DNA of 64,000 nt from Begonia masoniana (lineage: Eukaryota; Streptophyta; Magnoliopsida; Cucurbitales; Begoniaceae): assembly GCA_022432975.1 (NCBI GenBank), contig CM039508.1, forward strand, positions 31,204,433 to 31,268,432. The letters are read 5' to 3'. The notes beneath the pieces were generated by a model. The model searched no databases, was not told where the DNA came from, and worked only from the letters and a program-made list of their open reading frames with translations. Positions 2,880 through 59,979 of the stretch are shown one piece after another (the stretch's first letter is position 1; each line of letters opens with the position of its first letter). A program made the position numbers and the translations under genes.

Positions 2880-3617
2880 CACAACGCCAGGTAAGTGGGT
2901 GTTAGGTTTCCTGCCCTTAAGGCCGTACATCGTGTCAATGTTAGGTTTTCGTGTTTTGATGATGATTTTCTAATTGTAGGGCTTAACGTGTCGGGTAGCC
3001 TAGGATGTTAGTTAATAGTTGTTTGTTAGGTTCGTTGCGAGTAAAGCATGTCTATGTACGTTTGTAAATTGTTTGATGATATGTCATACGTGAATTCCTC
3101 ATGCATCATGTTTTCTCAAATGTCATATGAAATGTTTCCATGTATGATTTATGTAAAGGAAAGGTAACGATTAAGTGTGGGTTGGGAAAGTATGGCCATA
3201 TCAACAAAACTAATGTCACTGTCCACGCGATGGATCATGATTACGGCCGAAAGGACTATGTACACGCACTTGGCCTACTCCCTGGCACGATCCCCACCTT
3301 AATTCATGTCAACGAAAAGAAAAAGAATAAGAACAAGTAAACGAACATGTTTTATGAAAAATCATGCCTTCATGCATATGTCATTTATAGTACATTCCCT
3401 TACTAAGCATTAGGCTTAATGTTTAAGTTTCATGATGTAGGTGACAAGAATGAAGGTGAGGAACATTCCCACGATGATCAAGTATAGGTGGTCGTTGGAT
3501 GGGTGCTCGTGGCGACGGCAAGTGTTTTGGCTAGGCTTGATGACTCGTCGGTTTGCTCCAAACTATTTTGTGGTAAATAGGTGTGGATTAGATTAAGATT
3601 TGTTGATGTTATGGATT
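2880..3617 (+). mobile_element. LTR remnant Z, left part (split by element A)
   Basis: From about 2880 the sequence follows the LTR of element C: ACGCCAG|GTAAGTG, then a GTTAGGTTTCC..CCTTAAGGCC block, the CATGCATCATGTTTTC stretch, TTACTAAGCATTAGGCTTAATG, and GATGTAGGTGAC. Similarity stops at 3617, where element A begins, and resumes at 12661. The 5' third of the LTR is missing or too diverged to see. The last five bases (GGATT, 3613-3617) are the left copy of element A's target duplication. Confidence 0.7.
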
Positions 3618-5757
3618 TGTAACGCCCCGAATTATATAAACACGGTTCACTACACTTAACCCGAATATAACTAAGAAACTTTGGACAAAATTTAAAATTT
3701 CGCTCGAAAGTCAAAATTTGACATTTTCTAAAACCTCGAAATATTAAAAAAAAACTAGCAGCGGAAATCATTTAAGCAAAAATAGAGTTAATCAAAACTA
3801 TATAAAAGAAATGTTTGAATAATCGGTTGAAATAGTAAGAAACAATCGGCCAAAGGAAATAAGGGTTTAAATCGTGAAATACTCGAAAAATTACAAAAGT
3901 CTAACATATCTACCGCCGAGCAAAGTCAACGGAAGAGGCTGAAACTGGAACCAGAAAGCTTCCCTGGTGACAAGCGACAAAACTTTGGCTACATCAACCG
4001 GTCACAAAACGACAAAACACTTCCTACATCCACCGGTGACGTCAGTCATCGTCCGGTCACAAAACGACAAAAAACTTCCTACATCCACCGGTGACGTCAG
4101 CCATCATCCGATCGGCTTTATCATACATCCACCGGTGACGTCAGCCGGATGATTCATTCATCCGATCGACTTTATCATACATCCACCAGTAAAACAAGCT
4201 ACATATACCGATTACTAAACGACAAATTACATTCTGTATCATCCGATGGCTTCCACTGAGGACATCTTCCGATAGACAACAGAACAACAACTCAACTTCT
4301 GCCGATAGACTTCATCTACCGACAGAGAATAGAATAACAACTCAACATCTGCCGATAGACTTCATCTACCGACAGAGAACAGAACAACAACTCTAACTAC
4401 GGAAAGGAATTTACTAACTTCACTGAAACCATTCAGAAACAATTCAAACTATTGCATTACTAAAATCCAGTGAATACCAACGTAAAATCCCAACAGAATA
4501 CTATTATCAGTAAATCTCAAAAAAAGGGTATTCAAAACATTGAAACCACTACGGTCATGAAAATTCAACACACTTAAATTGAAACATTGTCAACTAAACC
4601 TTCATACTACTGACACCAGTTAACCCGCCTCATCAGTTTGCTAGACCGAAGAATGAATACACTCCTCCAACCTCATCTATTCATCTGTGCACACAAGGAA
4701 ATCACCTGCAGTATCCTCAACACCTACATCACAAAACTCATCTATTAGCCTAATGCTAAGTAAGTAAAGTAGTAAGAAAATGAGATGCTGAAATGCTGAG
4801 AGACAAAATTCCTAAACATGCAAATTTCTACTTTCTCATCTCAGTTGCATTTATATTCATTCATAACTGATCTGATCCCCCGGTTTCCTTGGGAGTGGGA
4901 TCAATCCTCCCAATGTTATACATCCTCTACTCGATTAAGGGGCAGATAGATTCCCTTAATAGCTAATCTGATCCCTCAATTCCCTTGGGAGTGGGATCAA
5001 TCTCCCAATGTTATAAATCCACTACATCAATTAAGGGGCGGATTAGTTCCCTTAATAGCTATTATAACACGTTCTGTTCATGCCTTACCATTCATTCCAT
5101 GTAAATTCATTTTCGTGTTTCTTCAAAAACATGATACATGACATAAAGAAAACACTCAAACATGCATAACCCTACTGTTTTGTGATGTAGGCCCGAAGGC
5201 ACACACAATACTTCACTTACCTGGATTCCTGGTGAATACTCGGTTAGGGGTTGCTTCGAAGTTGCTCACCTAGAACCATAAACAGAGCATCAAGCCAATC
5301 CTTACAAATCCTCATTCTAAAGCATTCAGAAAACCTAAGTGAACAGTTAGGAGTTCTATTCACTGAGCATCCCCAAATTTTACACTAAACCCGAATCTAC
5401 TCTCATTCACAACATCCGCGAAATCCCCACATTATACTCCCTCAGTTGTCTAACTGCTTAAACCCGAGAGAAATGAGGAAAACTTACCAGGTTGAAAGGG
5501 AAATCGGGTGGGAGAATCGTTGAGAGCTCTACTGAGCTTGAGTCGAATACCGAAAGGAGTAAAGATGAAATAGTGGCGGCTATAGTGCATTTGTCACTAA
5601 ATCTCTTCCCTTTAATAGGTTATCCACTTTTAAATTTCAAGTTACCCTTATACCCTTGCCTAGTCACTCAATAACCCTACATTTATTATCACCATTTAAA
5701 GTGTGTCATTAATTTTAGAAAGAAATAAGACTTAGTTCTAAAGAACCGAGTGTTACA
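3618..5757 (-). repeat. element A 3' LTR
   Basis: The LTR is 2140 bp. On the minus strand it carries the shared LTR plan: a donor CTG|GTAAGT near 5485, an acceptor TTCTAG|GTGAGC near 5270, a second donor CCAG|GTAAGT near 5220, and a GATGTAG|GTG acceptor near 4725. GGTGACGTCAGCC repeats lie near the plus-strand left end. It has two copies of a 50-bp tandem unit where the other LTR has four. Confidence 0.93.
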
Positions 5758-10421: not shown

Positions 10422-12655
10422 TGTAACGCCCCGAATTATATAAACCCGGTTCGCTACACTTAACCTGAATATAACTAAGAAACTTTGGACAAAGTTTAAA
10501 ATTTCGCTCGAAAGTCAAAATTTGACATTTTCTAAAACCTCGAAATATTTAAAAAAAAGACTAGCAGCGGAAATCATTTAAGCAAAAATAGAGTTAAACA
10601 AAACTATATAAAAGAAATGTTTGAATAATCAGTTGGAATAGTAAGAAACAATCGGCCAAAGGAAATAAGGGTTTAAATCGTGAAATACTCGAAAAGTTAC
10701 AGAAGTCAAACATATCTACCGCCGAGCAAAGTCAACGGAAGAGGCTGAAACTGGAACCAGAAGGCTTCCCTGGTGACAAGCGACAAAACTTTGGCTACAT
10801 CAACTGGTCACAAAACGACAAAACACTTCCTACATCCACCGGTGACGTCAGCCATCGTCCGGTCACAAAACGACAAAACACTTCCTACATCCACCGGTGA
10901 CGTCAGCCATCATCCGATCGGCTTTATCATACATCCACCAGTGACGTCAGCCGGATGATTCATTCATCCGATCGACTTTATCATACATCCACCAGTAAAA
11001 CAAGCTACATATACCGATTACTAAACGACAAATTACATTCTGTATCATCCGATGGCTTCCACTGATGACATCTTCCGATAGACAACAGAACAACAACTCA
11101 ACTTCTGCCGATAGACTTCATCTACCGATAGAGAACAGAATAACAACTCAACATCTACCGATAGACTTCATCTACCGACAGAGAACAGAATAACAACTCA
11201 ACATCTGCTGATAGACTTCATCTACCGACAGAGAACAGAATAACAACTCAACATCTGCCGATAGACTTCATCTACCGACAGAGAACAGAACAACAACTCT
11301 AACTACGGAAAGGAATTTACTCATTTCACTGAAACCATTCAGAAACAATTCAAACTATTGCATTACTAAAATCCAGTGAATACCAACGTAAAATCCCAAC
11401 AGAATACTATTATCAGTAAATCTCAAAAAAAGGAACATTGAAACCACTAAGGTCATGAAAGTTCAACACACTTAAATTGAAACATTGTCAACTAAACCTT
11501 CATACTACTGACAACAGTTAACCCGCCTCATCAATTTGCTAGACCGAAGAATGAATACACTCCTCCAACCTCATCTATTCATCTGTGCACACAAGGAAAT
11601 CACCTGCGGTATCCTCAACACCTACATCACAAAACTCATCTATTAGCCTAATGCTAAGTAAGTAAAGCAGTAAGAAAATGAGATGCTGAAACGCTGAGAG
11701 ACAAAATTCCTAAACATGCAAATTTCTACTTTCTCATCTCAGTTGCATTTATATTCATTCATAACTGATTTGATCCCTCGGTTCCCTTGGGAGTGGGATC
11801 AATCCTCCCAATGTTATACATCCTCTACTCGATTAAGGGGCAGATGGTTTCTCTTAATAGATAATCTGATCCCTCAGTTCCCTTGGGAGTGGGATCAATC
11901 TCCCAATGTTATAAATCCACTACATCAATTAAGGGGCGGATTAGTTCCCTTAATAGCTATCATAACATGTTCTGTTCATGCCTTACCATTCATTCCATGT
12001 AAATTCATTTTCGTGTTTCTTCAAAAACATGATGCATGACATAAAGAAAACACTCAAACATGCATAACCCTACTGTTTTGTGATGTAGGCCCAAAGGCAC
12101 ACACAATACTTCACTTACCTGGATTCCTAGTGAATACTCGGTTAGGGGTTTCTTCGAAGTTGCTCACCTAGAACCATAAACAGAGCATCAAGCCAATCCT
12201 TACAAATCCTCATTCTAAAGCATTCAGAAAACCTAAGTGAACAGTTAGGAGTTCTATTCACTGAGCATCCCCAAATTTTACACTAAACCCGAATCTACTC
12301 TCATTCACAACATCCGCGAAATCCCCACATTATACTCCCTCAGTTGTCTAACTGCTTAAACCCGAGAGAAATGAGGAAAACTTACTAGGTTGAAAGGGAA
12401 ATCGGGTGGGAGAATCGCCGAGAGCTCTGCTGAGCTTGAGTTGAATACCGAAAGGAGTAAAGATGAAACAGTGGCGGCTATAGTGCATTTATCACTAAAT
12501 CTCTTCCCTTTAATAGGTTATCCACTTTTAAATTTCAAGTTACCCTTATACCCTTGCCTAGTCACTCAATAACCCTACATTTATTATCACCATTTAAAGT
12601 GTGTCATTAATTTTAGAAAGAAATAAGATTTAGTTCTAAAGAACCGGGTGTTACA
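10422..12655 (-). repeat. element A 5' LTR
   Basis: The LTR is 2234 bp, 94 bp longer than its partner, mostly because of two extra 50-bp tandem units at 11121-11280. Intron-like blocks on the minus strand are 12385-12168 (218 nt, GTAAG...CTAG) and one from 12118 (AG|GTAAGT). The exon-like block between them is 12167-12119 (49 nt). A duplicated module of about 100 bp (TTGGGAGTGGGATCAAT...) lies at 11770-11960. Confidence 0.93.
11121..11290. repeat. 50-bp tandem repeat inside element A 5' LTR
   Basis: The string TCTACCGA(C/T)AGAGAACAG recurs exactly every 50 bp (11121, 11171, 11221, 11271). The other LTR has only two such units at 4310-4390. Copy number therefore changed in one LTR after insertion, by slippage or unequal exchange. 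Confidence 0.9.
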
Positions 12656-15118: not shown

Positions 15119-17476
15119 TGTAACACCCAGAAAATTCCGATAACGTGTGTAGCCCTAGGTTGTATGAGAGTTTAATGTTAAGTGATGGAGGGATTAGAAC
15201 TAAGTAAAATGTAAGAAGAAGTTTGACAATTCAAAACCAAAGAGTGGGTGAAAAGTCAAAGTATTTAAGCCAATCAAATTTCAAAGAAATGTGTGAAGGA
15301 AAAGGGGCATTTCTTTTGATGACTCACGTTGCATTTTAGGAGGGAAAAAGGGAGGGTGGAGTTGTAATTTTAAAAACTTTGGGGTGAGATTTTAAAAGAA
15401 GAAAATTTTTAGGTTTAAATGGTAAAGTTTTTCTCTTTTTCCTTCATCTCCCACTCCATTTCTTCTTCTCCTCCATAGCCGATCTCCTCCCTCTTCTTTT
15501 CTTCAATTTTGCAAGGTGTTTCAAGGTAAGAATGAATGGGTTTTGGTTTGTATACATATAGGTGAAGTTTATTGGTGATTGTAGGGTGTTTTGGTTGGAT
15601 TTAGTGAGGGTTTGAAAACCCTAGATTGAGGATTCCGAAAATTCCATTCCCTTGGCTAGTTTTCTTCCTCTTTTGATCATTTAATCCTTAGATATGATAG
15701 TTTAGGTTGTTTGGGTGGTTAGATTAAGGATTTGGAGTGAGTTGTTAGAAAACCAGTTTTGTACATTAAGAACACCGATTCTGTTTTTGGTTTTTCTGTT
15801 TGGGAAATGTGTTTGGTTGGTTAATTTGAGTGTTTTAATGGATAGTAGACGTGTAGAGGTTTACGGGTTGGGGTGGCACGTCGAAATCCGTTGAAAAATG
15901 AGAAAGTTATGGCCGTTTGAAGTTGGATGCTCGAAATTGTGCATAAAATCGGATTTTAGGGCTTTGAGGGTGAATTTGTTTTAAGTGTTGTTTAGTTTTA
16001 GTTAGAAAATCCTTTAGATTTTATTGGTGACTTACCAAGTTAAGTTTTTGTTATTTTAGGTCATCGAGCTAGTGAAGTGATAAGACGAAGTGAGAAATTG
16101 AAAGTCGAACAAGCAGGTAAGTAGTGGTTTCTATTCTTTCGCCTTCGGGCCTACACCATAGAACGGTAGGGTTTAATGGTTATTTGTTTTGCTTCATGTT
16201 GTGTTGAGTTGTCGTGTTGTGTTGCATATCTTTGAAGCATGCATCATGGTTTATAGCAAGCTAGATACGAATAGTGGCATTGTGTGGCATTGTGAGTGTG
16301 TATGATAGTTGGATAAAGAGTAAGGCATCTTATGGGTGCAGGCAAATTTTTAAGGCATCCTATGGGTGCAGACAAATTTTTAAGGCATCCTATGGGTGCG
16401 GGCAAATAAGACATCTTTCGATGCAGGCAAATAAGGCATCTTTCGATGCAGGCAACTAAGGCATCTAACGATGCGAGCAATTCTTAAGGCATCCTATGGA
16501 TGCGGGCAAACTTTAAGGCATCGCGATCGATGCAGGCAAACTTTATTAGCACAACTGTGCGTTAGAAACTGCATGTGATAGGATTGATTGCATTTTGTGT
16601 TATGGCATTCATTGTTCCTTACTTGCTAAGTATTAGGCTTATGTTTTGTGTTCTATGGTGTAGGTGACGAGATTTGCACAGGTGAGATAGACGAGACAGC
16701 CCAGGACTAGATAGCAGTCGGAGGAGTACGGGGTACGCCGGTGTAGGCTATTGTCGGGGCATCTTGGCCATCGTCTTCCGAGGGTTGTGTGGGAGTTTTG
16801 GTATTTTGTTTTGTAAATATTTTTCCTAGCTATTTTGGGACGGTTGTGAATGTGGATAGTTGGTCTGTACATGTTTGGAAGTTGAAATTATTTTATTTCC
16901 GGTTTTGATTGCAGGTTTGGATTTTTTTTGAAATTTTAGGCGTTATGCCGCTCGTTTGATTTTAAAACCAATAACGTCGGGTTCCCATTCTCTATTTTTT
17001 TTCGTTATCTATTTTAAGTCGGTTTTCTAAGATTTTTACGAGATACGAAGTCGAGAGTGTTGGGAATGTGTGGGTAAATTTTCAGGTGATTTGCAGGTGT
17101 TTGGCTTGAAGAAAAATAAAGAAAATGGAGGAAATTTGAAAAAAGGTGAAAAATGGGCGTTTTTGGCCGAAAAACCCGAGGAGGCCCGATCGATCGGGCG
17201 CTGGGTGCACAGGCGGACGCGCGGCGCCCAGCGCGTGCGCCCAGCACCATGTTTTTGAAAAGAAAAATTTAATTCCTATTTCTACTATGTTTTGACCCGA
17301 CCTTTTCCGACGTATTTTAAACGTATTTTACGCACGTTTACCAATATTTTTTGAGGGTCCAAAAAACCCAGAAATCGAGTCAAAAATTTATCAAAAATTA
17401 TTTTAAACGTCGTTTTAAATGCGGGTTGAGTTAGCAAAGTAGCGCACCGAGTCAGGGTGGGTTCGGGGGCGTTACA
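15119..17476 (+). mobile_element. solo LTR (2358 bp) with target duplication CTCAC
   Basis: The block starts TGTAACACCC and ends GGGGGCGTTACA, with CTCAC on both sides (15114-15118 and 17477-17481) and no internal domain. It is therefore a solo LTR left by recombination. It follows the shared plan: pyrimidine-rich start at 15430-15500, intron-like block 15526-16059 (GTAAGA...TTTTAG), exon-like 16060-16116, donor CAG|GTAAGT, a motif GGGCCTACACCATAG at about 16147, acceptor GTGTAG|GTGACG near 16665, and a GC-rich hairpin at 17185-17250. Confidence 0.93.
16322..16544 (+). repeat. array of about 8 small hairpins in the solo LTR
   Basis: Units of roughly 22-30 bp, AAGGCATC-N4/6-GATGC(A/G)GGCAAA, are repeated about eight times. 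Each holds a short inverted repeat (GCATC/GATGC or GCATC/GGTGC) with changing loops (TTTC, TAAC, CTATG, GCGATC). The array lies in the second intron-like block. Confidence 0.85.
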
Positions 17477-21517: not shown

Positions 21518-22402
21518 TTTTCATTTCCTCTCCAACACTCCAACGTAAAATCCATTTTCCTCTCTCCTTTGGCGCGACTCTTCTCCTTTCCTCCGGCGAT
21601 TCTTCATTTCGGCGACGATTTCTTTCCTCCGACGACTCGAATCTTCACGCTTCTTCGTCGTCTTTGCTCTCTAGGTAAGGCTCTAAGCTTTTGGAACGTT
21701 AGATATTGATTTCTAGGATTTAAAACGAATAGAGTTCGTTAGGGTTTTCCTTGAAAACGTAAATCGATGTTTGAAATTGAGAGGTTGAGCTTAGTTATGC
21801 CTCTAATAGACGTATTGATAGTTATCGGAGCTTAGTTCATCGATTTGTTGAGGTGTATTGGAGACTTGGTTAAGTTGGAGCTTGAAAACCTGCATTAATG
21901 GAAGTTTGTTGATTCTCGAGCGTGAGTTGCTCGATGAAATGCCTCAACGAAGTGTTTTAGAGTTTTAGGGGATTTTCTTTAGTTAGGAGTTAACAATTTT
22001 TGGAGTTTGGTGATTTAGACTCGATTTAATACGTATATTGTGAAATGCATAGGTGAACAAACGCTCGTGGACGGAGCTCGGTGTGCAACGACGCGAGGTA
22101 AGTTCTCGTGACTTACTCTGGCCGATAGGCCTACACCATATGTCAATGTCGTCTCGAGGAACCTTGATGATTGTTTGTTTAAATTGTTTTGGGTTTGGGT
22201 AGTTAGGATTAGTTGTTTTTATATGTTGTTTATTTATTGTCTTGATGGCACACATGTGATTGTTTACTTTATGTTTATATTGAACTGTTCACGCATCATG
22301 GTTTTTAAAAAATGTCATGAAAATGAATTTACGCACGGATTTCATGAAAAGAACATGCATGTAAAGGCAAGTAAAGTATCACAGTAAACAACCATGACAT
22401 GG

Positions 22403-22525
22403 GGTTATCGGGGATGAGGTTCAGACCTGGCGTTCCGTGGTGAGCGGGTTTTCCTCCCTTCAGATGGTGTGGGCTGTCTAATCGCTTGACGTGCCCTATC
22501 CATCTGTCGAGCGTTTCCGATAACC
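22403..22525 (+). ncRNA. candidate structured RNA element in LTR D
   Basis: An outer stem GGTTATCGG (22403-22411) pairs perfectly with CCGATAACC (22517-22525). An inner stem CAGATGG (22461-22467) pairs with CCATCTG (22500-22506). The same positions in LTRs B, F and H also pair although the bases differ. This is an inference from base pairing; no homologous known RNA is recognised. Confidence 0.45.
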
Positions 22526-23641
22526 ATAGACTGACACGTACGGATATATGCATTGACATGGACGGTTTTCATAGTACAGAGCATACATGATCATGCATTA
22601 GCATTTACGTAGAGCTTACTGAGATTTTTATCTCATAGGTGTCTTTATGGTGTAGGTGATTTCGAGACAGGTGAGGATGACGTCCCTCCGCCTGAAGTAT
22701 GAGCATGTTGAGGGAGGAGGCCCGTGGAAGTGCGCTGGCAGTCGGAGCGTGATTTTGACCCGTTGGGACGTACATAGGTAGTTTGGGTTATTTTGGATAA
22801 AATTTTTAGAACAAATAGGTTGAATGGATCCGGATAGTTGATAGAATGTGTTTTGGGAAATTGTAACTATTTTGCAATGTTTTGAAATGTTTTGGTATTT
22901 TAAAACAGGAGGAATATGTGAAATGTTTAAACGGAACCACGCAATTTGTTTTGAGAAATTGGTAACGTTTAAATGTGTTTTTAGTCGAGTTAGGAGTGAT
23001 TGGTAAAGTGGGGGAGTAAAGTGTTTTTATGGTTATGAAAGTGTGTAAAGAAATGATGAAGATATGAGGTAGAAAAGAATATTGCAATGTGTATGATTAT
23101 GTTGAGTGTTGAATGGTTAAGTGAATTGCAGGGCGTGAAACGGGGAGGGAGAAGCAGCCTCTGGATTTCAAAATCCAGAGGCAGTGGCGAATAGTCACCT
23201 GAGGGACGCGAGCAATCGCCCCTCCCTTTGCTTGAAATCGCCAAGCGGCGATAGTAATCGCTGCCCTCTGGAGAAATCCAGAGGGTGTGGCGATTGATCG
23301 CCACAATTGTGGTGATCAATCGCCACAAGCGATTGCAACAGGCGATTGTGCCTGTTGCAATCGCCACATGTTCTGCCATTTTAGGCAGAACATATAAAAA
23401 AAAATAATAAAAGGATTTAAAATAACTTTAAACTAAATGTTTTCTTTTATTACTTAATTGTTTAAATAGATTGTTTTAAGTTTATTTTACATAGTTTTAA
23501 AACGAAAATTTTAAACGTTGTTAATAATTTCAATTATGATTTAAAAAGTTTTATTCCGCTAGAATGAGAGATTTAAAGTTTGTACGTATAAAATGAAAAA
23601 TTTATACGGAAAAATTAAGGGTAGGTTTTTGGGTCGTTACA

Positions 23642-24841
23642 TCAATATCTTAAAGTAAACAAGCAATAATGTATACCATCAAAGACTGTAAAACATAATC
23701 TATAAAACAAATAAACCTAGGTACCCAACCAAAGCAATATAAAACAAGTGCGTCTCCAAAATTCCTCGACACGACAGTCGACGTACATTGTAGGCCAATC
23801 GGCCAGAGAAGAATCACGAGAACTTACCTCGTGTCCAAAGCAGCTCAATCTCCGTCCACGAGCGCTGTTCACCTAAGCAATTTACAAGGATTGACGTTAA
23901 AACGAATTTAAGTTGATAAACGTCGGAATCATCAAAACCTTAACTAAAGTAATTTCCTAAAACTTTAATCCAATTCATTGAGCTATTTATTCGAGCAAAT
24001 TTACGCTCGGCACCTCAATATTCCAATTACGAGTTTTTCCTAAAATCTCGAATTCTCACAAATTTTAACATTCGTCCTAAATCAATTAAATTCGTCCAAT
24101 AACGTCCAATACGTTCAATATACACTTAATCATAGTGAATCCATAAATTTCGAATTCTAAATCTCGTTTTTAATCGAAACCCTAAACGAACCCTAATGGG
24201 TTTAACTCTACGAAACTCGGAATTTAACGCTCTAAAACTGTAGAATCATACCTAGAACGTCGATTGGAGGAGAAAACGCGAAGAAAACGAGATGATCGGG
24301 AGAAAGATCGGAGGTCGAAAAGCTGAAGTCGCCGCGGGCATAGGGAGAAGTCGCGAAAGAGAAAAGGAGAAATGCTCTCTGGAATCTATTTTCAGAAATG
24401 AAAATCACTTAAGGCTTTTGCCTTTTTATTAAATTTAGTTGCCTAATGACCATTTTGCCCTTACACTTGTTTTATATTTGTTTCGTCCTTCGTTTCGTTA
24501 ATCGTCCAACGACTCGACTTTTCCAAATTTTCATATTTCGCCAATAAGTCCAACTTATTATTTGAGATTTATCAAAATTATCCGTTTGCAATGTGGACCC
24601 CGTTTGTTATTTTTACGAGAACATCTTTTACATTACAAGAAATGTATTTACTCGGAATATAGCGTCTAAACTCCGAAAATTCTCGTAAGTTCCTTAAAAT
24701 TCCTATTAATCGTTAGGATCGTAATGACGCTTTCTTTTCGTAAAATGGACCTGATTTGACATATTTACCTAAAATGCCATTATATAATAAAATATGAATA
24801 TAATATATTAAATTCAAAATCCGTACAAGCCGGGTATTACA
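23642..24841 (-). repeat. element B 3' LTR, right part
   Basis: It resumes at TCAATATCTTAAAG and ends CCGGGTATTACA. On the minus strand it holds an exon-like start region (24370-24252), an intron-like block 24251-23873 (379 nt, GTATGA...GCTTAG), and a 45-nt exon-like block ending GAG|GTAAGT at 23828. It has 126 bp (24477-24602) that the partner LTR lacks. Confidence 0.93.
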
Positions 24842-26903: not shown

Positions 26904-29399
26904 TGTAACGCCCGGGAAATTTCATTTTAGGAATTATAAATTTTAGTTTTTAAGTATTTAATATTTTAAGCGTTATAGAGTTATAATTCGTAGAAATAGT
27001 GAATCAAGTCCGATTTGCGAACGGGAAGTTTCGTTAGGACCCTAGAATTTAATAGGAATATTTGGAGAAATAAGGGAATTTTGGAGAAACCAAATCGATA
27101 GACGAAATGACGAGTTAAGTTAAGAAATTCAATTAAGGGCAGAATGGTAATTATGAATCAAAATTTTAAATTAAAAAGAAAGCTCTCTCTCTTCTTTCTT
27201 TCTCATTTTCTCCTCCAGACCCGTAGCCCCTTTCTTTTTCCCTTCTCTGGCGATTTCTTTTCCTCCCTCTCTGCCGATCCTCAAGCTCAACGACTCCTCC
27301 ATTTTTGCAACGATTTCCCTTCCGATTTTCTTCCCCAGATCAGTGCCTTAGGTGAGTGCTACCTTCTAGTTGAATTTATTGATAGTTTCAGGGTTTATTT
27401 CAAATTAGGGTTTTATGAGAAATCGTCGATTTTAGTTAGAAATTCGATAGTTTATCAATATTAATGTTCGTAGATGATATATTAGTGATTATTGTGGTTG
27501 TTGGAGTTAGATTAGTGTTAGTGGTAATCATAATTGATTTTGGATTAGTTTTAGGTTTTTGTAAACGGATATACGAGACTTAGAGAAATTGTAAGCGTAA
27601 TGTGCTTAATGAGATGCTCGAGTGAGGAGGATTAGAGCTTTAGAAGAAATTTGTCTGGACTCGAAAAGTAGATTTGTTTGGAATTTATGTTTTAGAGTTG
27701 ATATTAATGATGTTTTATTAAATGTCTTAGGAAACCAAGCTCAACGGACGGTGCTCGGCATTTCTAGGACGCCAGGTAAGTGAGTATTAGGTTTCCGGCC
27801 CCTAAGGCCCTACGTCGTAGCGATATAGAAATTGTATGTTCCCGATGGTTTAGTTCATTTGGTTGAAAGGGGTTTCTAGTGTGTCGGGTACTTAGGATGA
27901 GTGATCGGTCTTACTACGTGTTTATCCGCCTACGGGCTATAGAAGTCTAAGAACGTGTCTTTGATGATTTCCTTACGTGATCGTTTGTCCTCATGCATCA
28001 TGTTTTCCAAAATGTGCATACGAACTGTTTACATGAATGTTTTACAAATGTTAAACTGAATAATGATAAATGTTGATGAGAAGTGATATGTTTTCTAATG
28101 GAATATGATATGGTTCTGACGGGGCAAGGCATGGTTCTGACGGGGCAAGGCAATGGTCTATGATATAGACGAATGTTTAAAGTTAATGAAAATGAAAACG
28201 AAAACGAACACGTTTTATAAATGTCATGCATATATGAATTGTTATGTTTAGTGCACTCTCTTACTAAGCATTAGGCTTAATGTAATTATCGTATGATGTA
28301 GGTGACGATATTGAAGGTGAGGATCTCCCTCAGGATGAAAATGTCTAGATGGTCGTTGGGAGAGGATCGTGGCGGCGAGGCGTGTTTTGGTTTGGCATGA
28401 CGACTCGCGTACGGACTCTGTATGTTTTGGGGATATGATGTATAGTGGATTATGGGTAGAGAGAATGATGAAATTGTAGGTTGTTAGATGAATTGGATAT
28501 TTTGGATCGTAGGTGGATGAACTTAGATTTGGAGTCATTTTAACTGGATGATTTGTAAGTATTTTGTTTGATGATTTAGATATTGTGAACTGTGGGATTG
28601 TTTCTGTTTTAAGGCTACCCACGCCTTTTTTTTTTATGAAGTCTCTGTTATGTTTTGAATTAGATGATTGAGTGGTTTTAAAATGGTTAGAATGTTATGT
28701 GTGTTAAATTGAAGTGTTTAAGGTGCAGGGATGGGAAAACGAAGTTTGTAGTTGCTCTCTGGAATCTGTGATTTCAGAGAGCAATTGCATAAAGCGTTTT
28801 GCCTCTACAGATTCCAGGGAGAAATCTCGTAAAGTCTTTACTCTCTGGAATGTGTAAATTACAGAGCAATAGCTAAGTAAAAACAGAAGAGAAGAAGAGA
28901 AGGATTGCAGCCTAGCATTAGCGATCGATCTCTATGAAACATAGAGATCGATCGCCCTTGCTGTTAAAGCATAGCGATTGATCTCTATGTTTTATAGAGA
29001 TCAATCGCCATGAAGAAATAAGAAGGCAGCAATCGATCTCTATGTTTTATAGAGATCGATCGCCCCTCCCCTTTGTAATGCAGCGATCGATCTCTATGTT
29101 TTATAGAGATCGATCGCCCTTCTCTTTTAATGCCAGCGACCGATCTCTATAAAACATAGAGATCGATCGCCCCTCCTCAAACCTTTCTGTTTCACGATTT
29201 TACCCTCACTTTTATTTAATAGCTTTAGTTGATTTTAAAATATGTTTATTAATTTGTTTCATGAGAGTTACTGAGAGTAAAAAAAAAAAATCTATATACT
29301 AACTAACAATAAATATAGTTCTACTGGGGTATGGAAGGTTGAGTGGGGACTAGGTTATGGTTAGGCCGTGACGGCCCTGACCGGGTTGGGGTCGTTACA
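26904..29399 (+). repeat. element C 5' LTR
   Basis: The LTR is 2496 bp, TGTAACGCCC...GGGGTCGTTACA. Internal plan: AAGGGCAGAATGGTAATT block at 27135, pyrimidine-rich start near 27180-27250, intron-like 27352-27730 (379 nt, GTGAGT...CTTAG), exon-like 27731-27775 (45 nt), donor CCAG|GTAAGT at 27776, a 21-bp duplication at 28110-28151 (TGGTTCTGACGGGGCAAGG), acceptor GATGTAG|GTGACG near 28303, and five hairpins at 28920-29172. Confidence 0.96.
28920..29172. repeat. five tandem hairpins in element C 5' LTR
   Basis: Inverted repeats of the form GCGATCGATCTCTATG-AAA-CATAGAGATCGATCGC (split here at the loop) occur five times, with spacers of 14-25 bp. The second has GCGATTGATC paired with GATCAATCGC, a change on both arms that keeps pairing. 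The other LTR has the same set at 36012-36264. Confidence 0.93.
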
Positions 29400-29402
29400 A
29401 TT

Positions 29403-29416: not shown

Positions 29417-29489
29417 ATAGAATTTTGAGAAAGTAATTTCGCGAAAGCCTTGCCAAAACACACCGCCGCACGAGGACTCTCCATCGACT

Positions 29490-29556
29490 GTAAGTGTTTA
29501 AGTTTAAGTACAATTCCTAGTTATTTATATTGTTTTGCATTGTCTAATATGTTCAG
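29490..29556 (+). other. candidate leader intron of element C
   Basis: GTAAGT at 29490 follows CGACT, and ATGTTCAG ends at 29556 after CTAAT (possible branch site), 67 nt apart. Splicing would remove the ATG at 29549 and leave the ATG at 29567 as the first one. Elements A, B and H have GTAAGT at the same distance (80-86 nt) from the primer-binding site and an AG shortly before the gag ATG. There is no direct evidence of splicing. Confidence 0.4.
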
Positions 29557-29566
29557 GAGCAAGAAA

Positions 29567-33997: not shown

Positions 33998-36494
33998 TGT
34001 AACACCCGGGAAATTTCATTTTAGGAATTATAAATTTTAGTTTTTAAGTATTTAATATTTTAAGCGTTATAGAGTTATAATTCGTAGAAATAGTGAATCA
34101 AGTCCGATTTGCGAACGGGAAGTTTCGTTAGGACCCTAGAATTTAATAGGAATATTTGGAGAAATAAGGGAATTTTGGAGAAACCAAATCGATAGACGAA
34201 ATGACGAGTTAAGTTAAGAAATTCAATTAAGGGCAGAATGGTAATTATGAATCAAAATTTTAAATTAAAAAGAAAGCTCTCTCTCTTCTTTCTTTCTCAT
34301 TTTCTCCTCCAGACCCGTAGCCCCTTTCTTTTTCCCTTCTCTGGCGATTTCTTTTCCTCCCTCTCTGCCGATCCTCAAGCTCAACGACTCCTCCATTTTT
34401 GCAACGATTTCCCTTCCGATTTTCTTCCCCAGATCAGTGCCTTAGGTGAGTGCTACCTTCTAGTTGAATTTATTGATAGTTTCAGGGTTTATTTCAAATT
34501 AGGGTTTTATGAGAAATCGTCGATTTTAGTTAGAAATTCGATAGTTTATCAATATTAATGTTCGTAGATGATATATTAGTGATTATTGTGGTTGTTGGAG
34601 TTAGATTAGTGTTAGTGGTAATCATAATTGATTTTGGATTAGTTTTAGGTTTTTGTAAACGGATATACGAGACTTAGAGAAATTGTAAGCGTAATGTGCT
34701 TAATGAGATGCTCGAGTGAGGAGGATTAGAGCTTTAGAAGAAATTTGTCTGGACTCGAAAAGTAGATTTGTTTGGAATTTATGTTTTAGAGTTGATATTA
34801 ATGATGTTTTATTAAATGTCTTAGGAAACCAAGCTCAACGGACGGTGCTCGGCATTTCTAGGACGCCAGGTAAGTGAGTATTAGGTTTCCGGCCCCTAAG
34901 GCCCTACGTCGTAGCGATATAGAAATTGTATGTTCCCGATGGTTTAGTTCATTTGGTTGAAAGGGGTTTCTAGTGTGTCGGGTACTTAGGATGAGTGATC
35001 GGTCTTACTACGTGTTTATCCGCCTACGGGCTATAGAAGTCTAAGAACGTGTCTTTGATGATTTCCTTACGTGATCGTTTGTCCTCATGCATCATGTTTT
35101 CCAAAATGTGCATACGAACTGTTTACATGAATGTTTTACAAATGTTAAACTGAATAATGATAAATGTTGATGAGAAGTGATATGTGTTCTAATGGAATAT
35201 GATATGGTTCTGACGGGGCAAGGCATGGTTCTGACGGGGCAAGGCAATGGTCTATGATATAGACGAATGTTTAAAGTTAATGAAAATGAAAACGAAAACG
35301 AACACGTTTTATAAATGTCATGCATATATGAATTGTTATGTTTAGTGCACTCTCTTACTAAGCATTAGGCTTAATGTAATTATCGTATGATGTAGGTGAC
35401 GATATTGAAGGTGAGGATCTTCCTCAGGATGAAAATGTCTAGATGGTCGTTGGGAGAGGATCGTGGCGGCGAGGCGTGTTTTGGTTTGGCATGACGACTC
35501 GCGTACGGACTCTGTATGTTTTGGGGATATGATGTATAGTGGATTATGGGTAGAGAGAATGATGAAATTGTAGGTTGTTAGATGAATTGGATATTTTGGA
35601 TCGTAGGTGGATGAACTTAGATTTGGAGTCATTTTAACTGGATGATTTGTAAGTATTTTGTTTGATGATTTAGATATTGTGAACTGTGGGATTGTTTCTG
35701 TTTTAAGGCTACCCACGCCTTTTTTTTTTATGAAGTCTCTGTTATGTTTGAATTAGATGATTGAGTGGTTTTAAAATGGTTAGAATGTTATGTGTGTTAA
35801 ATTGAAGTGTTTAAGGTGCAGGGATGGGAAAACGAAGTTTGTAGTTGCTCTCTGGAATCTGTGATTTCAGAGAGCAATTGCATAAAGCGTTTTGCCTCTA
35901 CAGATTCCAGGGAGAAATCTCGTAAAGTCTTTACTCTCTGGAATGTGTAAATTACAGAGCAATAGCTAAGTAAAAACAGAAGAGAAGAAGAGAAGGATCG
36001 CAGCCTAGCATTAGCGATCGATCTCTATGAAACATAGAGATCGATCGCCCTTGCTGTTAAAGCATAGCGATTGATCTCTATGTTTTATAGAGATCAATCG
36101 CCATGAAGAAATAAGAAGGCAGCGATCGATCTCTATGTTTTATAGAGATCGATCGCCCCTCCCCTTTGTAATGCAGCGATCGATCTCTATGTTTTATAGA
36201 GATCGATCGCCCTTCTCTTTTAATGCCAGCGACCGATCTCTATAAAACATAGAGATCGATCGCCCCTCCTCAAACCTTTCTGTTTCACGATTTTACCCTC
36301 ACTTTTATTTAATAGCTTTAGTTGATTTTAAAATATGTTTATTAATTGGTTTCATGAGAGTTACTGAGAGTAAAAAAAAAAAAAATCTATATACTAACTA
36401 ACAATAAATATAGTTCTACTGGGGTATGGAAGGTTGAGTGGGGACTAGGTTATGGTTAGGCCGTGACGGCCCTGACCGGGTTGGGGTCGTTACA
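33998..36494 (+). repeat. element C 3' LTR
   Basis: The LTR is 2497 bp. Differences from the 5' LTR seen by eye include TGTAACACCC for TGTAACGCCC at the start, one T/G near 35186, C/T near 35421, a missing T near 35749, and C/T and G/A changes in and near the hairpin array. The hairpin set lies at 36012-36264; its third hairpin is perfect here and has one mismatch in the 5' copy. Confidence 0.96.
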
Positions 36495-39129: not shown

Positions 39130-41542
39130 TGTCAAGACCCTAACACTGTACCCAATTTATCCTAATATCTTTCTTTTTTTTTTTATCCTAATACTTAAAA
39201 TAAACTCTAGGCGGAACCTAAACCGAAATCGAAACCAGAATCGAAATCGGAATAAGAATCTATGTTTTAAAACATTTAATACAACTTAAAACAAATTAAA
39301 TAAATTAATTAAAAACTATAAAAACAATTAAAGAAAAGAAATAATTAAAGGGAGGGCAAAACTGTCCATCCCGTGACAAAAGGGGCAGCAAACAGTCGCT
39401 GCAGCATGCAGCGACTAATCGCTGCATTCGCTGCAACGAGCAGCTATCAGTCGCTGCAATTTGCAGCGACTGATCACTGCATTTGCTGCAGCAAGCAGCG
39501 ATTGATCGCTGCATTGCTGCAGTGATCAATCGCTGCACACTGCAGTGCAGCGATCGCCTCCTGCGATCATTTGCCTCATCTTCTAGCAACCTGTTTACTT
39601 GAATAACATGCTCTCTAGAATTTCCAGAGAGCAAACACTTAATCAACTCTCTGGAATCCGATTTCAGAGAGCAAACCTCACCTACTTAACACCAATTATC
39701 AACAATCAACTTATAACTTAAACTCGATTAACTTGCAGCGGACTTTGCGAAATTCAACTGCGTGGATAGCTCTAAAAACCGAACATATCCGTAACGTTCC
39801 TAAAACCATTCAAAACATTTCTATAACGTTAAATAAAAGCTTTAAACCAAAACATTTTCTATATACAATTTACCAAAACGTTTGAACCATAGAACATAAA
39901 CCTATCAACTACCAATACCAAGCATCCTAAAATATTCTATACAACTATAGACTCAAAACATCTCAAAATCTATACATACTCCCCCACGGTCGGTTAAGCA
40001 TCAACTACGCCAGCACACCACCGCAATCATCCTCCGTCAACTGGACTCAAGCCTCAGGAGGAGGGACATCGTCCTCACCTGCCTCGATGTCTAAGTCACC
40101 TACACCATACAATTCACTATGAGATGAAATCCCAGTAAGCTCTACGTAAATGCAATGCATGCTGTGCATATGAGTTCATTAATCATGTATGTTTTCTTTA
40201 CTATGCAATGCTCAATAGGTGTCACCGAGATCCTATCCCTCTAACCAGAGAAAGCTCATCCAGCGGGCGGACTACTCTTTCCGGCTAGAAGGGGGTGCAC
40301 GCTTACAACACGTACAGCCGTGCCTGAGCCCCACCTCGCGTGACCGATAACAATACGCCTTTCGGCCAATACGCCTTTCGGCCGATGCTATGATTTACAT
40401 TATCTTTAAAACTCTGTGAGGAAGTTCATTTTCATGCTTTTCTTTAAAACAAGTGATGCGTGAACAGTTCAATATCTTAAAGTAAACAAGCAATAATGTA
40501 TACCATCAAAGACTGTAAAACATAATCTATAAAACAAATAAACCTAGCTACCCAACCAAAGCAATATAAAACAAGTGCGTCTCAAAAATTCCTCGACACG
40601 ACAGTCGACGTACGGTGTAGGCCAATCGGCCAGAGAAGAATCACGAGAACTTACCTCGTGTCCAAAGCAGCTCAAGCTCCGTCCACGAGCGCTGTTCACC
40701 TAAGCAATTTACAAGGATTGACGTTAAAACGAGTTTAAGTTGATAAACGTCGGAATCATCAAAACCTTAACTAAAGTAATTTCCTAAAACTCTAATCCAA
40801 TTCATTGAGCTATTTATTCGAGCAAATTTACGCTCGGCACCTCAATATTCCAATTACGAGTTTTTCCTAAAATCTCGAATTCTCACAAATTTTAACATTC
40901 GTCCTAAATCAATTAAATTCGTCCAATAACGTCCAATACGTTCAATATACACTTAATCATAGTGAATCCATAAATTTCGAATCCTAAATCTCGTTTTTAA
41001 TCGAAACCCTAAATGAACCCTAATTGGTTTAACTCTACGAAACTCGGAATTTAACGCTCTAAAACTGTAGAATCATACCTAGAACGTCGATTGGAGGAGA
41101 AAACGCGAAGAAAACGAGACGATCGGGAGAAAGATCGGAGGTCGAAAAGCTGAAGTCGCCGCGGGCAGAGGGAGAAGTCGCGAAGGAGAAAAGGAGAAAT
41201 GCTCTCTGGAATCGATTTTCTGAAATGAAAATCACTTAAGGCTTTTGCCTTTTTATTAAATTTAGTTGCCTAATGACCGTTTTGCCCTTACACTTGTTTT
41301 ATATTTGTTATTTTTACGAGAACGTCTTTTACATTACGAGAAATGTATTTACTCGGAATATATCGTCTAAACTCCGAAAATTCTCGTAAATTCCTTAAAA
41401 TTCCTATTAATCGTTAGGATCGTAATGACGCTTTCTTTTCGTAAAACGGACCTGATTTGACATATTTACCTAAAATGTCATTATATAATAAAATATGAAT
41501 ATAATATATTAAATCTAAAATCCGTACAAGCCGGGTATTACA
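39130..41542 (-). repeat. element B 5' LTR
   Basis: The LTR is 2413 bp. It has the same plan as the partner: hairpin cluster 39385-39560, intron-like block 41078-40700 (379 nt), 45-nt exon-like block and GAG|GTAAGT. It lacks 126 bp found at 24477-24602 in the partner; a TTTGTT repeat sits at both deletion edges. It also has about 40 bp extra in the hairpin cluster. Confidence 0.94.
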
Positions 41543-42567: not shown

Positions 42568-45500
42568 TGTAACACCCAGTTTTCATCGGGTTTTCGATTT
42601 TCTGCATATGAATGTCATTTTCGTAAATATATAAAATTAAGTCCGTTCTACGAACGGGAAGATTCGTTAGAGCCCTAGTAATTAATGAGAAATTTTAGAA
42701 GAATAAGGAAATTTCATAAATCCAAATTGACAGTATAACGCCCAAGTGTTCGATTTCTGCTATAAGAGGTAATTTCGTAAATAATCGAAATATGTCCGTT
42801 TTGTGAATCGAGACTTTTAATGGAACCCTTATGATTTATAGGAATTTTAGGGGAAAGATGAGAATTTTTGGAATCCCAATCGATGGTGAAACGGTGAAGT
42901 TTCCGTTTTCGCCCCTATTGCGATTTAATTCGTAAAAATAGTAAACAAAATCTGTTTGATGAACGGATAGTTTTATTAGAGCCCTAATAATAAGTTGGAA
43001 TTATTGGAGAAATAAGAAAATTTTAGAGAAACCGAACCGATAGTCGAACAATAGGATAAACGAGAAAATTTAAATGAGGGACGGACTTGTAATTTATCAA
43101 TCCAATTCAATTAAAATGGCAAAACTCCCCTCATTTCTTCTCCAGCCCTCAACGAAAATCGCAGAGCACTCCTCCCTGGCGATTTTTCTTCTCCAACGTC
43201 GATTCTCCTCTCTTTCAACGACGACTCCATCAATCGAGCCGAGTTCTTCACTATTTCTTCTCCAAGCGGCATTCTAGGTTAGATTCTAGTGTTATTTCAG
43301 AGTTAGTTCTCGACTTCTAGATTGTTAAACCGTTAGGGTTTTGTTGGTTGTGTCGAAAATAACCGGGCTATGTTCGAAAATGTTAGATATTGCCGTATTG
43401 ACGATTATTTAGCATTATTCGATGGATTGGTTGAAATGTGCAAACTGGAAAATGTAGGGCAGATTCGAATTTTTATTTTCTGCCATTTATTGGGGTTCAT
43501 TTTTGATAAATGAATAATTCTATGTTAAACTAGACATTGTAAGGATTCTATGACATTTTGAATTATTGAATTCGGATATGTGTACGATTTATGGTGAATT
43601 TTCGAAGTTGGACAAAAAGTAAGGATTTAAAAACAGAGCAGTTTCGGTTTTAGATTTTCTGCCATTCTTCGGGCTTGGCTTTTGATAAATGAGTTTCACC
43701 ATTAGAAAGTAGACATTCTAAGGAGTCCATAGCAACTTGATTCACTCGATTTCGTTAAGAATTGATTTAGTTATGAATTTTCAAAGTTGTTGTGCAAAAA
43801 CTGGAGAATTTCCGCAACCAGTTCGGTTTTCGTTTTTCTGGCACTAAATGAGTTAGCTTTTTAGCAAATAGACTCCACCATGTTAAACTAGACGTTTTAA
43901 GGATTCTATAGCATGTTGAATCATTGAAATCGGATAAGAATTGGAGAAGTTATGAATTTTCAAAGTTTAAGTGAAATGGTAAAACGAAATTCCGGGCAGG
44001 TCACTGTTCCGATGCATTTTGACCCTCTTCCCGATTCTATCTCGCAAAACTGTTTTTGTGGATTAAATTAGATACCTTAAGGAAGCCGTGGCCTTTGGAA
44101 TTAAGCCGTTTCGACATTTGTAGATGAAGTTATAATTTTTCGAAATTGGTTCATGTTTCGAGCTAGAATCTTAGTTTTTATGATTAAAGTCAACTGATTT
44201 GCTTGTGTTGGTTTGAAATGCTTCATTTAAAGTGCCACACATGTTTATGTTCTTGTTGGATTAGATTTCTTGGAATTGTTGATGTTCGGTTTTAAAACTA
44301 ATTATATTGAGATGTTTCGATTGGAGATATTGATTTTTTTAGTTGATGTGCTTTAGGTTTCAAGTTACAAAAATAGATTCGTCAAGCTAAATTCATTTGC
44401 TAAGGACCCGAGGTAAGTCTCTGTGACTTGTTTGGCCATCTAGGCCTACACCGTACGAATTGAGTCGATTCGAGGATATTGGTGATGATTGTGTGTTTCG
44501 GGTGATTAGGACGGGTAGTTAGACTACTTTAAGTTATAGAAAGTTTAGTTTTGATGGTTGTTAAATGCTTTATTTTCATTGTTCGTTATCGTCATTGCAT
44601 AGAGCACGTTCAGGCATTGTTTTCTAAGCACGCATGCAAAATGAATTTCAAAGCGTTTTACATGGAAAAAAGGTAAACAAAGTACGTAATTGAACAACAG
44701 AGATAGTCACGCCGGGTGCGGTGGTTCAGGCATGGCTGTCGAAGGAAGCATCCTTTCCCCCCGTGTTAGATCCGAGGGGCTATCCAATCGCGGGATGTGC
44801 CGCTCCTATCTAACGAGAGTGAAGCCCCGGGTGACACATAGACACAGAAACAAAGAAATGAAAAGAATGCAGAGTTTCAAAAGAACATAGCATAGCATAG
44901 CATACATTTGCATTCACTTAGATTTACTGAGCCTCTAGCTCACGTGTTAAATTCTATGGTGTAGGTGACATTGAGACAGGTGAGGAAGACATCCCTCCGC
45001 CTGATGTATGAGCATGTTGAAGAAAGATGGCTCGCGGGAGTGCGCTGGTGGTCGGTGCTTGATTTTGACCCGTGGGGACATAGGTAATGTTCGGGATTTG
45101 ATAGATAAAAGGAATTGTATAGTTGATATTTAGGATGTCTGGATTTGGATTGTATTTTGTTATGTTTTCGATGTTTTTCAAACAGTGGGAATGTTAAACT
45201 TTTAAACGGAACCATGCGGTTCGTTTTCGTGAAATCGATTTCGTTTAAAATTGTGTTTTGAGTTGGTGAATAGGTGATTGATAGCGGGGGAAACGTATGT
45301 GTGAAATAGTGTTATTGTATAGAAGTGTGTTATGAAATTTTCAAAGATGTTTGATGAAAGAAAGAAAAAAAAAGGGAGTTGTGTGTTTTGTGTTGTATGT
45401 GTTATTTTGTTGTGTGCTAAGGGGTGAGCGTGAAAGGCAGGGCAAGAGGGAGGCGACGGGTCGCAGAATGAGGGGAGTTGGAACGCAGAACTCTCTGGTT

Positions 45501-57627: not shown

Positions 57628-58525
57628 AAATTTGTGTAATATCCGACCTGTACGGAATTTCATATTATAATATATATTGGCATTTTTGTAAATATGTCAA
57701 ATCAAGCCCGTTTTACAAAAAGAAAGCATCATTTCTATCCTAACGATTAATAGGAATTTTACGAAATTTACGAGAATTTTCGGAGTAATAACGCTATATT
57801 CCGAGTAATTAAATTTCTCGTAATATAAGGAACGTTCTAGTAAAAAATAGTAAACGAGGTCCGATTTGCGAACGGACAAATTTAATAAATCTCAAATAAT
57901 AAGATGAACCTATTGGTGAATTAAGGAAATTTGGAGAATCCGAATAGTTAGCCGATTGATGAAACGAAGGAAGAAACAAATATAAAAACTAAAGAAGGGC
58001 AAAAAGGTAAATTGCCATGTTGATTTTTAATAAAAATCAAATTTCATCATTCAGCAGAACACTTCTGCGATTTCAATTTTTCCTCTTTCTTCCAGAGGCG
58101 ATTTCTCTCTCGGCTTCCCTCTCTGCCCGCGACGACTTCGACGATCCGACCTCCAATCTTTCCTCCAATCGTTCCGTTTTCTTTGTGCTTTCTCCTCCAA
58201 TCGACGTTCTAGGTGATCAGCGCTCGTGGACGGAGCTTGAGCTGCTTTGGACACGAGGTAAGTTCTCGTGATCTTCTTTGGCCAATTGGCCTACACCGTA
58301 CGTCAAATGTCGTCTCGAGGAGTTTTGGAGATGCGTCTGTTTAATTTTGCTTTGATGGGTAGGCAGGTTTAGTTGTTTTATAGGTTATAGGTTATCCATT
58401 TATAGTCTTGATGGTACCCGTTATTGCTTGTTTACTTTATGATATAGACTGTTCATGCATCACGTGTTTTAAAGAAAAGCATGAAAGTGAATTTTTGCAT
58501 AATGTTTAAAAGATAATGTAAAGAA

Positions 58526-58627
58526 TAAAATGGGCCGTAAGGCATACAGTTAAAATGGGCCGTAAGGCATACAGTTAAAATGGGCCGTAAGGCATATAGT
58601 TAAAATGGACCGAAAGGCATACAGTTT
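58526..58627 (+). repeat. four 25-bp units inside element H LTR
   Basis: Three near-identical copies and one changed copy (ATGGACCGAAAGGCATACAG) of the satellite unit. In element B the same position has GGCCGAAAGGC-containing units of about 16-17 bp. The changed copy resembles the B type. Confidence 0.93.
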
Positions 58628-58760
58628 ATAGGTCATGCGAGGTGGGGCTCAGGCACGGCTGTACGTGTTGTAAGCGTGTACCCCCCGCCTCTAGCTGGAA
58701 AGAGTAGTCCGCCCGCTGGATGAGCTCTCTCCGGTAAGAGGATAGGATCTCGGTGACACC
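58628..58760 (+). ncRNA. candidate structured RNA element in element H LTR
   Basis: GTCATGCGAG pairs with CTCGGTGAC (outer stem) and CTAGCTGGAAAGAG pairs with CTCTCTCCGGTAAG (inner stem, with G-U pairs). The equivalents in LTRs B, D and F pair with different bases. No known RNA family is recognised. Confidence 0.45.
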
Positions 58761-59369
58761 TACAGTGCATAGCATGGCATAGCATAGCACAGCATAGCAT
58801 AGCATAGCATAGCATTTGCATTTACGAGTCTTACTGAGATTTTTATCTCATAGTGTATTGTATGGTGTAGGTGATTACGAGGGGACAGGTGAGGACGAGA
58901 TCCTTCTACCTAAGGAGTGACGCAGTTGACGGAGGATGGCTTGCTGTGGTGTGTTGCGCAGTCGATGCTCACCTGACCCGTGGGGAAGTATGTATAGATT
59001 TTGAGGATTTTAAGTTACTTTGGATAGAATAGGAAAATTGTATAGACATTATGGGGTGTTTGGTTCTGGTAGTTGATAGGTTTACATTTTAATGTTTTTA
59101 AACGTTTTGTAATTGTTTAGTAATTTTAAAACAGGAGGATATGTTTGGTTTTTAAACATATCCATGCGGTTTATTTCTATAAAACGTACTTGGTTTTAAA
59201 ATGCGTTTGGAGTTGTTAACGAGGGGTAAGTGAATTATGTGGGTTTTGAGTGTTCGGAGGAATACGGGAATTGTGAATGTATGATGTAAGGAAGAGAAAA
59301 GAGAGGTGTATGTTGTGTGTATATGTGTGAACGCAGGAGAAGAAAAGGGAAAAAGGGGAAGGAGGCAGA

Positions 59370-59590
59370 GGAGATGGCGACGAATCGCCATGGGGGGCGA
59401 TTGCATCGCCACTCCCTGGAAAATTTCCAGGGAGTGTGGCGATTAGTCGCCACAAACTGTGGCGACTGATCGCCACAGGCGATATGCAACAGGCAAGTAA
59501 TCGCCTGTTGCAATCGCCGATGGGCGATTATTCGCCCTATCTTTTGGGCGAGTAATCGCCCCTGCATGTAAAGGGGCGATTGCCCCTTTT
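59370..59590. repeat. hairpin cluster of element H LTR
   Basis: Nested inverted repeats include CTCCCTGGAAAATTTCCAGGGAG, GTGGCGATTAGTCGCCAC, GTGGCGACTGATCGCCAC and GGGCGATTATTCGCCC. The position in the LTR is the same as the clusters of B, C, D and F. Confidence 0.85.
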
Positions 59591-59816
59591 GTCCCTCAAT
59601 TTAACTTAATTGTTTTTAAATGTTTTTAAATTGATTTACATATTTGTTTTACTTGTTATTTAAATTGTTCCAAGATTTGTTTTAAACGATTTTTTTAACG
59701 AACCTTGATTTCGATTTCGGTTTAGGTTCCGCTTAGGGTTTATTTAAAGTATTTATAAAAAAAATAAAAAAAATAGTATGAAGAATCGGGTACAGTATTA
59801 GGGACGTGACAAATTA

Positions 59817-59829: not shown

Positions 59830-59979
59830 CCCAAGTTTTAAAATCGGTTCTGTAGACTGCTCGACTGCACAGCCACTACGCGGACATCCTTCATCAACTG
59901 TAAGTACGTTTATAGCTTTATTTGATTTCTAGTTTCTTAGAGTATTGTGTTTTAACTTTGGTATAAGAATTTTATAAAT

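Follow-up and report, generated by a model that had tools for sequence, protein, structure and literature searches.

In this work we analysed a 64,000-nt stretch of the Begonia masoniana genome (assembly GCA_022432975.1, contig CM039508.1, positions 31,204,433 to 31,268,432 of the forward strand; hereafter the window, to which all coordinates refer), and found that the 5' long terminal repeat (LTR) of a Ty3/Gypsy retrotransposon, element H, lacks an intron-like GT...AG block that is present at the same place in the LTRs of its relatives. The loss runs precisely from donor to acceptor, and a second such block, located just downstream, is retained in H. The best reading of these sequences, and a probable one in our judgement, is that an RNA spliced at the first intron but not at the second was reverse transcribed.

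Exact loss of an intron-like block in element H

A preliminary description of this stretch had reported that each LTR of the related element B holds a GT...AG block of 379 nt, at 24251-23873 and 41078-40700 of the minus strand, and these coordinates hold. Both copies of the block begin with GTATGATTC and end with TTGCTTAG, after which the LTR continues with GTGAACAGCGCTCGTGG. It was also right that H joins the flanks of the block directly at 58212/58213, where it reads TTCTAG|GTGATCAGCGCTCGTGG; the joined sequence TTCTAG|GTGATCAGCG is split in B by GTATGATTC...TTGCTTAG. When H was compared by BLAST with the 5' LTR of B (B5), positions 468-580 of the H LTR matched 41191-41077 and positions 576-1485 matched 40702-39862, so that the two pieces meet at the junction with a 5-nt overlap, TAGGT. 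The sequence CGACGTTCTAGGT, searched for with at most one mismatch, gave three matches, all of them exact (24250-24262 minus, 41077-41089 minus and 58202-58214 plus), compared with 0.04 matches on average in shuffled sequence. The features of the H LTR are as follows.

57635..59811, plus strand: 5' LTR of element H, 2177 nt
58202..58223, plus strand: exon 1-exon 2 junction without intron 1, joined at 58212/58213
58213..58257, plus strand: exon 2, 45 nt, 44/45 identical to B5
58258..58870, plus strand: intron 2, retained, 613 nt, GTAAGT...GTGTAG, whose donor is the best-scoring GT of the LTR
58871..58888, plus strand: candidate short exon 3, 18 nt, presuming use of the conserved third donor CAG|GTGAGG
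59900..59967, plus strand: candidate third short intron, 68 nt, with donor ACT|GTAAGT and a weak acceptor AAG, between the primer binding site and the gag ATG (59980)

The block in related LTRs

The other LTRs of the window that were compared with H belong to the following elements.

12655-10422 and 5757-3618, minus strand: LTRs of element A, target duplication AATCC
41542-39130 and 24841-19942, minus strand: 5' LTR (B5) and 3' LTR (B3, split by C) of element B, target duplication AATCT
21260-23641, plus strand: C, a solo LTR, target duplication TCAAT
26904-29400 and 33998-36494, plus strand: LTRs of element D, target duplication AATCG
starting at 42734, plus strand: E, an LTR fragment
15119-17476, plus strand: G, a solo LTR, target duplication CTCAC
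before 3617, plus strand: I, an LTR fragment

The place of intron 1 was read in ten LTR copies, namely the LTR pairs of A, B and D and the single LTRs read of C, E, G and H. A GT...AG block of 218 to 1079 nt stands there in nine of them, H being the only one without it. The positions given earlier for C and D were likewise correct.

40700..41078, minus strand: intron 1, B 5' LTR, 379 nt
23873..24251, minus strand: intron 1, B 3' LTR, 379 nt
21675..22052, plus strand: intron 1, C, 378 nt
27352..27730, plus strand: intron 1, D 5' LTR, 379 nt
34446..34824, plus strand: intron 1, D 3' LTR, 379 nt
43278..44356, plus strand: intron 1, E, 1079 nt, acceptor guessed
12168..12385, minus strand: intron 1, A 5' LTR, 218 nt
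5270..5487, minus strand: intron 1, A 3' LTR, 218 nt
15526..16059, plus strand: intron 1, G, 534 nt

The blocks of B and C are related in sequence (alignment score 85, compared with 12 for the best of 200 shuffles), and that of D is weakly related to both (B-D 22 versus 19 and C-D 29 versus 18.5, again for the best of 200 shuffles). Because these scores of D barely exceed all shuffles, the common origin of its block appears to rest more on place than on sequence. Percent identity of intron 1 between families was dropped as proof of kinship and the alignment scores were relied on instead, since shuffles reach 68-72% identity over fewer aligned bases.

As for the direction of the change, H is 91.0% identical to B over 1556 nt and 85.0% over 2846 nt inside the element, with 69% identity to D and 68% to A; in the LTR, its intron 2 and the part after exon 3 are 86% and 75% identical to those of B. 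Judged by this comparison, the state of H is a loss of the block, because H is nearest to B while B, C, D, E, A and G all have it.

A second intron-like block, and donors further downstream

Exon 2 is short (45 nt in H, B, C and D, 49 nt in A, 57 nt in G and 56 nt in E), and after it comes a second GT...AG block of 497 to 613 nt with the donor GTAAGT in all 11 copies read, which are the ten LTRs above plus I. H is among them; in B3 this block is split by the solo LTR C. The acceptors are conserved too, with ATG[GA]TGTAG or GTGATGTAG.

40100..40654, minus strand: intron 2, B 5' LTR, 555 nt
22098..22655, plus strand: intron 2, C, 558 nt
27776..28301, plus strand: intron 2, D 5' LTR, 526 nt
34870..35395, plus strand: intron 2, D 3' LTR, 526 nt
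44413..44964, plus strand: intron 2, E, 552 nt
11622..12118, minus strand: intron 2, A 5' LTR, 497 nt
4724..5220, minus strand: intron 2, A 3' LTR, 497 nt
16117..16663, plus strand: intron 2, G, 547 nt
2891..3440, plus strand: intron 2, I, 550 nt

G has the same two-intron layout, and by eye it carries short-unit repeats of its own within intron 2. A third donor, AG|GTGAGG (GTGAGA in G and GTGATT in A), is also conserved and ends a possible exon 3 of 15 to 21 nt. Beyond the LTR of A, B, D and H, at 83-89 nt past its end, stands ACT|GTAAGT; an AG comes 59-68 nt further on, just before the gag ATG.

Splice sites and base composition

Donors were scored with an approximate matrix for plant splice donors; the LTRs scored do not include the second one of D (3' LTR). 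Donor 2 is the top GT in 10 of the 10 LTRs scored, each of which holds 107-192 GTs, and donor 1 ranks between 2 and 5 in all eight LTRs scored for it. H, B5, C, E and the 5' LTR of D were then aligned to see whether the four best donors of each LTR fall in common columns. On the sense strand, all five LTRs have one such donor at column 1795 and another at column 2516. Donor 1, at column 643, also belongs to the top four of B5, of C and of D (5' LTR), so that these three have three of their four best sense donors in common columns. The four best antisense donors share no column across the five LTRs.

YTNAY motifs lie 21-50 nt upstream of the acceptors, although the motif is a common one. In B, C, D and A the GC content, which is 47-62% over exon 2 and the end of exon 1, drops to 30-40% within intron 1. 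The T content of intron 1 (36-41%) exceeds that of exon 2 (13-29%). The blocks thus have the consensus GT...AG ends, the strong donors and the position conserved in relatives that are expected of U2-type introns, and we infer from these features that they are spliced.

Spliced RNA or deletion of DNA

The preliminary description had proposed that the LTR leader contains a real intron and that spliced RNA was copied back. This view fits the data best: the place of the block is common to diverged LTRs, a second block follows, and the exact donor-to-acceptor loss is what a copy of a spliced RNA would show. It needs one correction, in that the copied RNA would be only partly spliced, because H keeps intron 2; H is therefore not a fully processed retrocopy, from which all introns would have been removed. 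In addition, nine pairwise LTR alignments contain 50 gaps of at least 15 nt (not counting those close to an end or opposite another gap), of which only one can be read as GT...AG, and this is the lost block, in H versus B3.

Several observations weigh against the copying of a spliced RNA. The retained intron 2 makes a partly spliced RNA a requirement, and the support comes from one LTR of one copy, the 5' LTR of H. H is no direct daughter of B, and the loss may thus date far back. The 50 gaps cannot be taken as independent of one another, and only one of the four alignments that involve H places the missing block as a single gap, as BLAST does. With respect to the splice sites, mononucleotide shuffling of one LTR yields a donor as good as its best in 2 to 35 of 300 cases, so that single LTRs prove little and the common place of the donors is what counts. 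The acceptors of intron 1 rank 11-23 among 142-173 in B, C, D and E, which is modest, those of A and G being good (rank 1-5). Finally, the GC contrast is small or partial in G and E, and T is no higher in intron 1 than in the pyrimidine-rich end of exon 1 (31-46%).

A plain deletion of DNA by microhomology at TAGGT, the match to splice sites being a coincidence helped by the frequency of AG|GT at both ends of introns, had been kept as an alternative from the start, and we regard it as unlikely. TAGGT stands at both edges of the block, as such a deletion would leave it, and repeat-mediated deletion is a live process here, because 126 nt are gone from B5 as compared with B3 (LTRs at 41542-39130 and 24841-19942, minus strand) with a 6-base repeat at the edges. 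Direct repeats near the borders were reported in all 213 introns examined in another study (PMC11782384), which also favours a deletion. On the other hand, such a process would have had many other repeats to use. B5 contains 1,869 direct-repeat pairs of at least 5 nt at a distance of 100-1000 nt, of which 92 can be read as GT...AG and 20 of these have G at both -1 and +5, one of these 20 being the conserved block; over the initial 1,200 nt of B3 the corresponding numbers are 786, 31 and 3. Moreover, B5 offers 528 repeats of at least 6 nt, none of them at this place. The weight given to RNA copying relative to deletion is a matter of judgement.

The blocks might also be unspliced, their sites having been kept for some other reason, such as promoter function or binding of the U1 small nuclear ribonucleoprotein, and the loss in H being a chance deletion. 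A precedent may be found in human L1, whose conserved donor in the 5' untranslated region (5'UTR) is reported to sit in a transcription-factor site (PMC5860796). We nevertheless hold this to be quite improbable, given that the acceptors of intron 2 are conserved as well, that YTNAY motifs lie upstream and that the loss runs exactly between the two sites. Even less can be said for the block being an insertion of a small mobile element with TAGGT as its target duplication, and H an empty site. The TAGGT on either side of the block in B and C does resemble a target duplication. However, B, C, D and E all have the block in one and the same position, with equivalents in A and G, its ends are not inverted repeats (GTATGATTCT and AATTGCTTAG), and with H nearest to B a precise loss would still be needed. 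An insertion origin, which the place common to several elements nearly refutes, was rejected as extremely improbable.

Comparison with known systems

The process nearest to the one proposed for H is that of the spliced integrated retrotransposed elements (SpIREs) of human L1, in which an RNA spliced in its 5' leader is copied back with a precise donor-to-acceptor loss (PMC5860796). According to the same source, the loss in SpIREs, which derive from a non-LTR element, affects the only 5'UTR and lowers promoter activity, whereas in H it lies in the LTR and concerns a block common to diverged elements. SpIREs as a class belong to the non-LTR element L1, and the elements described here have LTRs and a primer binding site; H thus resembles SpIREs in its working only.

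Plant LTR elements are generally without introns, with Ogre and EVADE as the exceptions with functional introns named in the passages seen of a 2025 review (PMC12786077). There, the splice of EVADE takes out the protease region, and those passages do not state that an LTR holds any of these introns. Work on BARE1, a plant LTR retrotransposon, describes pools of spliced and unspliced RNA (PMC3735527), and places its intron, of 104 nt, at the end of gag and not in the LTR. Among the GAG-RNAs found by nanopore sequencing in triticale, 13 of 15 have one intron, and the sole Ty3/Gypsy GAG-RNA is without one (PMC7765848, from the passages seen); in sunflower, two elements gave rise to isoforms from which two introns were spliced out (PMC7730604, likewise). 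Because of these spliced RNAs, introns as such are not rare in plant elements; the passages from both studies describe them at the RNA level and do not place them in the LTR. In foamy viruses the major splice donor is located in the LTR, upstream of the polyadenylation signal (PMC3694450), but the abstract places only the donor there, while the LTRs of the window hold pairs of donor and acceptor. An intron within a plant LTR was not named in the titles and abstract openings of the open-licence literature searched, which is not proof of its absence in print.

A possible role of splicing in the life cycle

We propose that these Ty3/Gypsy LTRs would carry two spliceosomal introns in their transcribed leader, and that the template RNA would normally keep both, given their presence in the other copies in view. 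Introns should vanish in an RNA-based life cycle; two of them kept in diverged LTRs would mean either that the RNA used as template avoids splicing or that the LTR copy at the 3' end of the RNA serves to restore them, and the fact that A, B and D keep intron 1 in both LTRs argues for one or the other. D, whose two LTRs are 99.6% identical, is a young element with both LTR introns kept, and it is perhaps active.

In the line of H, an RNA without intron 1 but with intron 2 would have been packaged and used as the template for reverse transcription. Because the 5' leader of an RNA can supply R/U5 to both new LTRs, the product would be an LTR from which the intron is precisely missing, and we infer that the block is likewise absent from the 3' LTR of H. 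A TATA-like box is found at position 347 of the H LTR, and if transcription starts near it, both introns would lie in R or U5. AATAAA precedes the end of the LTR by 49 nt in H and by 92-93 nt in D; it was not found in the LTRs of B, C, A and G that were examined over their final 200 nt.

As a speculation, joining of the third LTR donor to the AG before gag would yield an mRNA without the primer site. The multi-intron leader might then be kept because splicing separates messenger from template, the fully spliced RNA being translated and, if its third donor joins the pre-gag AG, losing the primer binding site, so that only the unspliced RNA could be copied; H would be a rare leak of a partly spliced RNA. 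This explanation is a tentative one and, for all its appeal, doubtful. If introns in LTRs are real, H would represent one natural failure of the escape from splicing and offer a way to count the rate of such failures. The reading of LTR promoters would change as well, since solo LTRs, of which C and G are examples, would supply the neighbouring DNA with a ready-made first exon together with introns and a second exon.

The leader reading frame

A frame is open in the H leader at 58017-58921, through exons 1-3. In B, C, D, G and H, both introns are of phase 1 and the frame is open across the three exons; in A it is open over the 44 codons of exon 1 and exon 2, and E has a stop in it, given its guessed acceptor. 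The length of exon 3 before the third donor (15, 18 or 21 nt) is a multiple of three in all 11 copies, as is the distance from the start of GGTGA to the stop of the frame (30 or 33 nt, 11 of 11 copies). Against a leader protein, an in-frame ATG is present in exon 1 only in H and D, and the leader peptides align poorly, their identity to the first of them being 16-34%. Of 1,045 database candidates, not one matched them at E ≤ 1, the peptide of A having had a misread N-terminus in both comparisons. A short protein encoded by the spliced leader is thus unproven. A fusion of the leader frame to gag was considered by eye and dropped as inconsistent between A, B and D.

The elements of the window

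Nested elements of this kind fill the window. The LTR pairs, a PBS-like site (that is, one resembling a primer binding site) and target duplications (A, B, C, D and G), together with the protein domains given below, assign the elements to Ty3/Gypsy. In H the PBS-like TGGTATCAGAGC follows the 5' LTR, at 59817; H extends beyond base 64000, and its 5' LTR is the only one within the window. Pfam domains were searched with pieces of the elements, none being scanned whole. Pieces of H matched gag and RVP_2, and those of D, in order, gag, RVT_1, RT_RNaseH and Integrase_H2C2; a Chromo match in D (E 0.00094) has 19.5 bits, under the curated 25.1. A chromodomain after the integrase would suggest a chromovirus, presumably one of the Tekay/Del-like lineage. 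Between the LTRs of D, at 29450-33982, lies an open frame of 1510 codons, listed with TTG as its first codon.

The gag of H has 45 database matches with 23-43% identity, and the named ones are mostly from flowering plants (e.g., Primulina, Zingiber, Coffea and Rosa), plus two with bacterial labels. These two plant-type gag proteins, P0003 and P0005, are filed as a bacterium and as Salmonella enterica and are perhaps contaminations with plant DNA. Two scans of viral contigs with reverse transcriptase pieces gave no relatives. A run of 100 N at 1773-1872 is probably a scaffold gap. Ahead of H, the 25-mer GTTAAAATGGGCCGTAAGGCATACA is repeated head to tail in 79 exact copies at 55650-57624, ending 10 nt before the element, and it also occurs inside intron 2 of the H LTR, once exactly and with near copies adjoining. 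Since the 25-mer is common to the array and intron 2, H may have inserted into an array that expanded from a related LTR.
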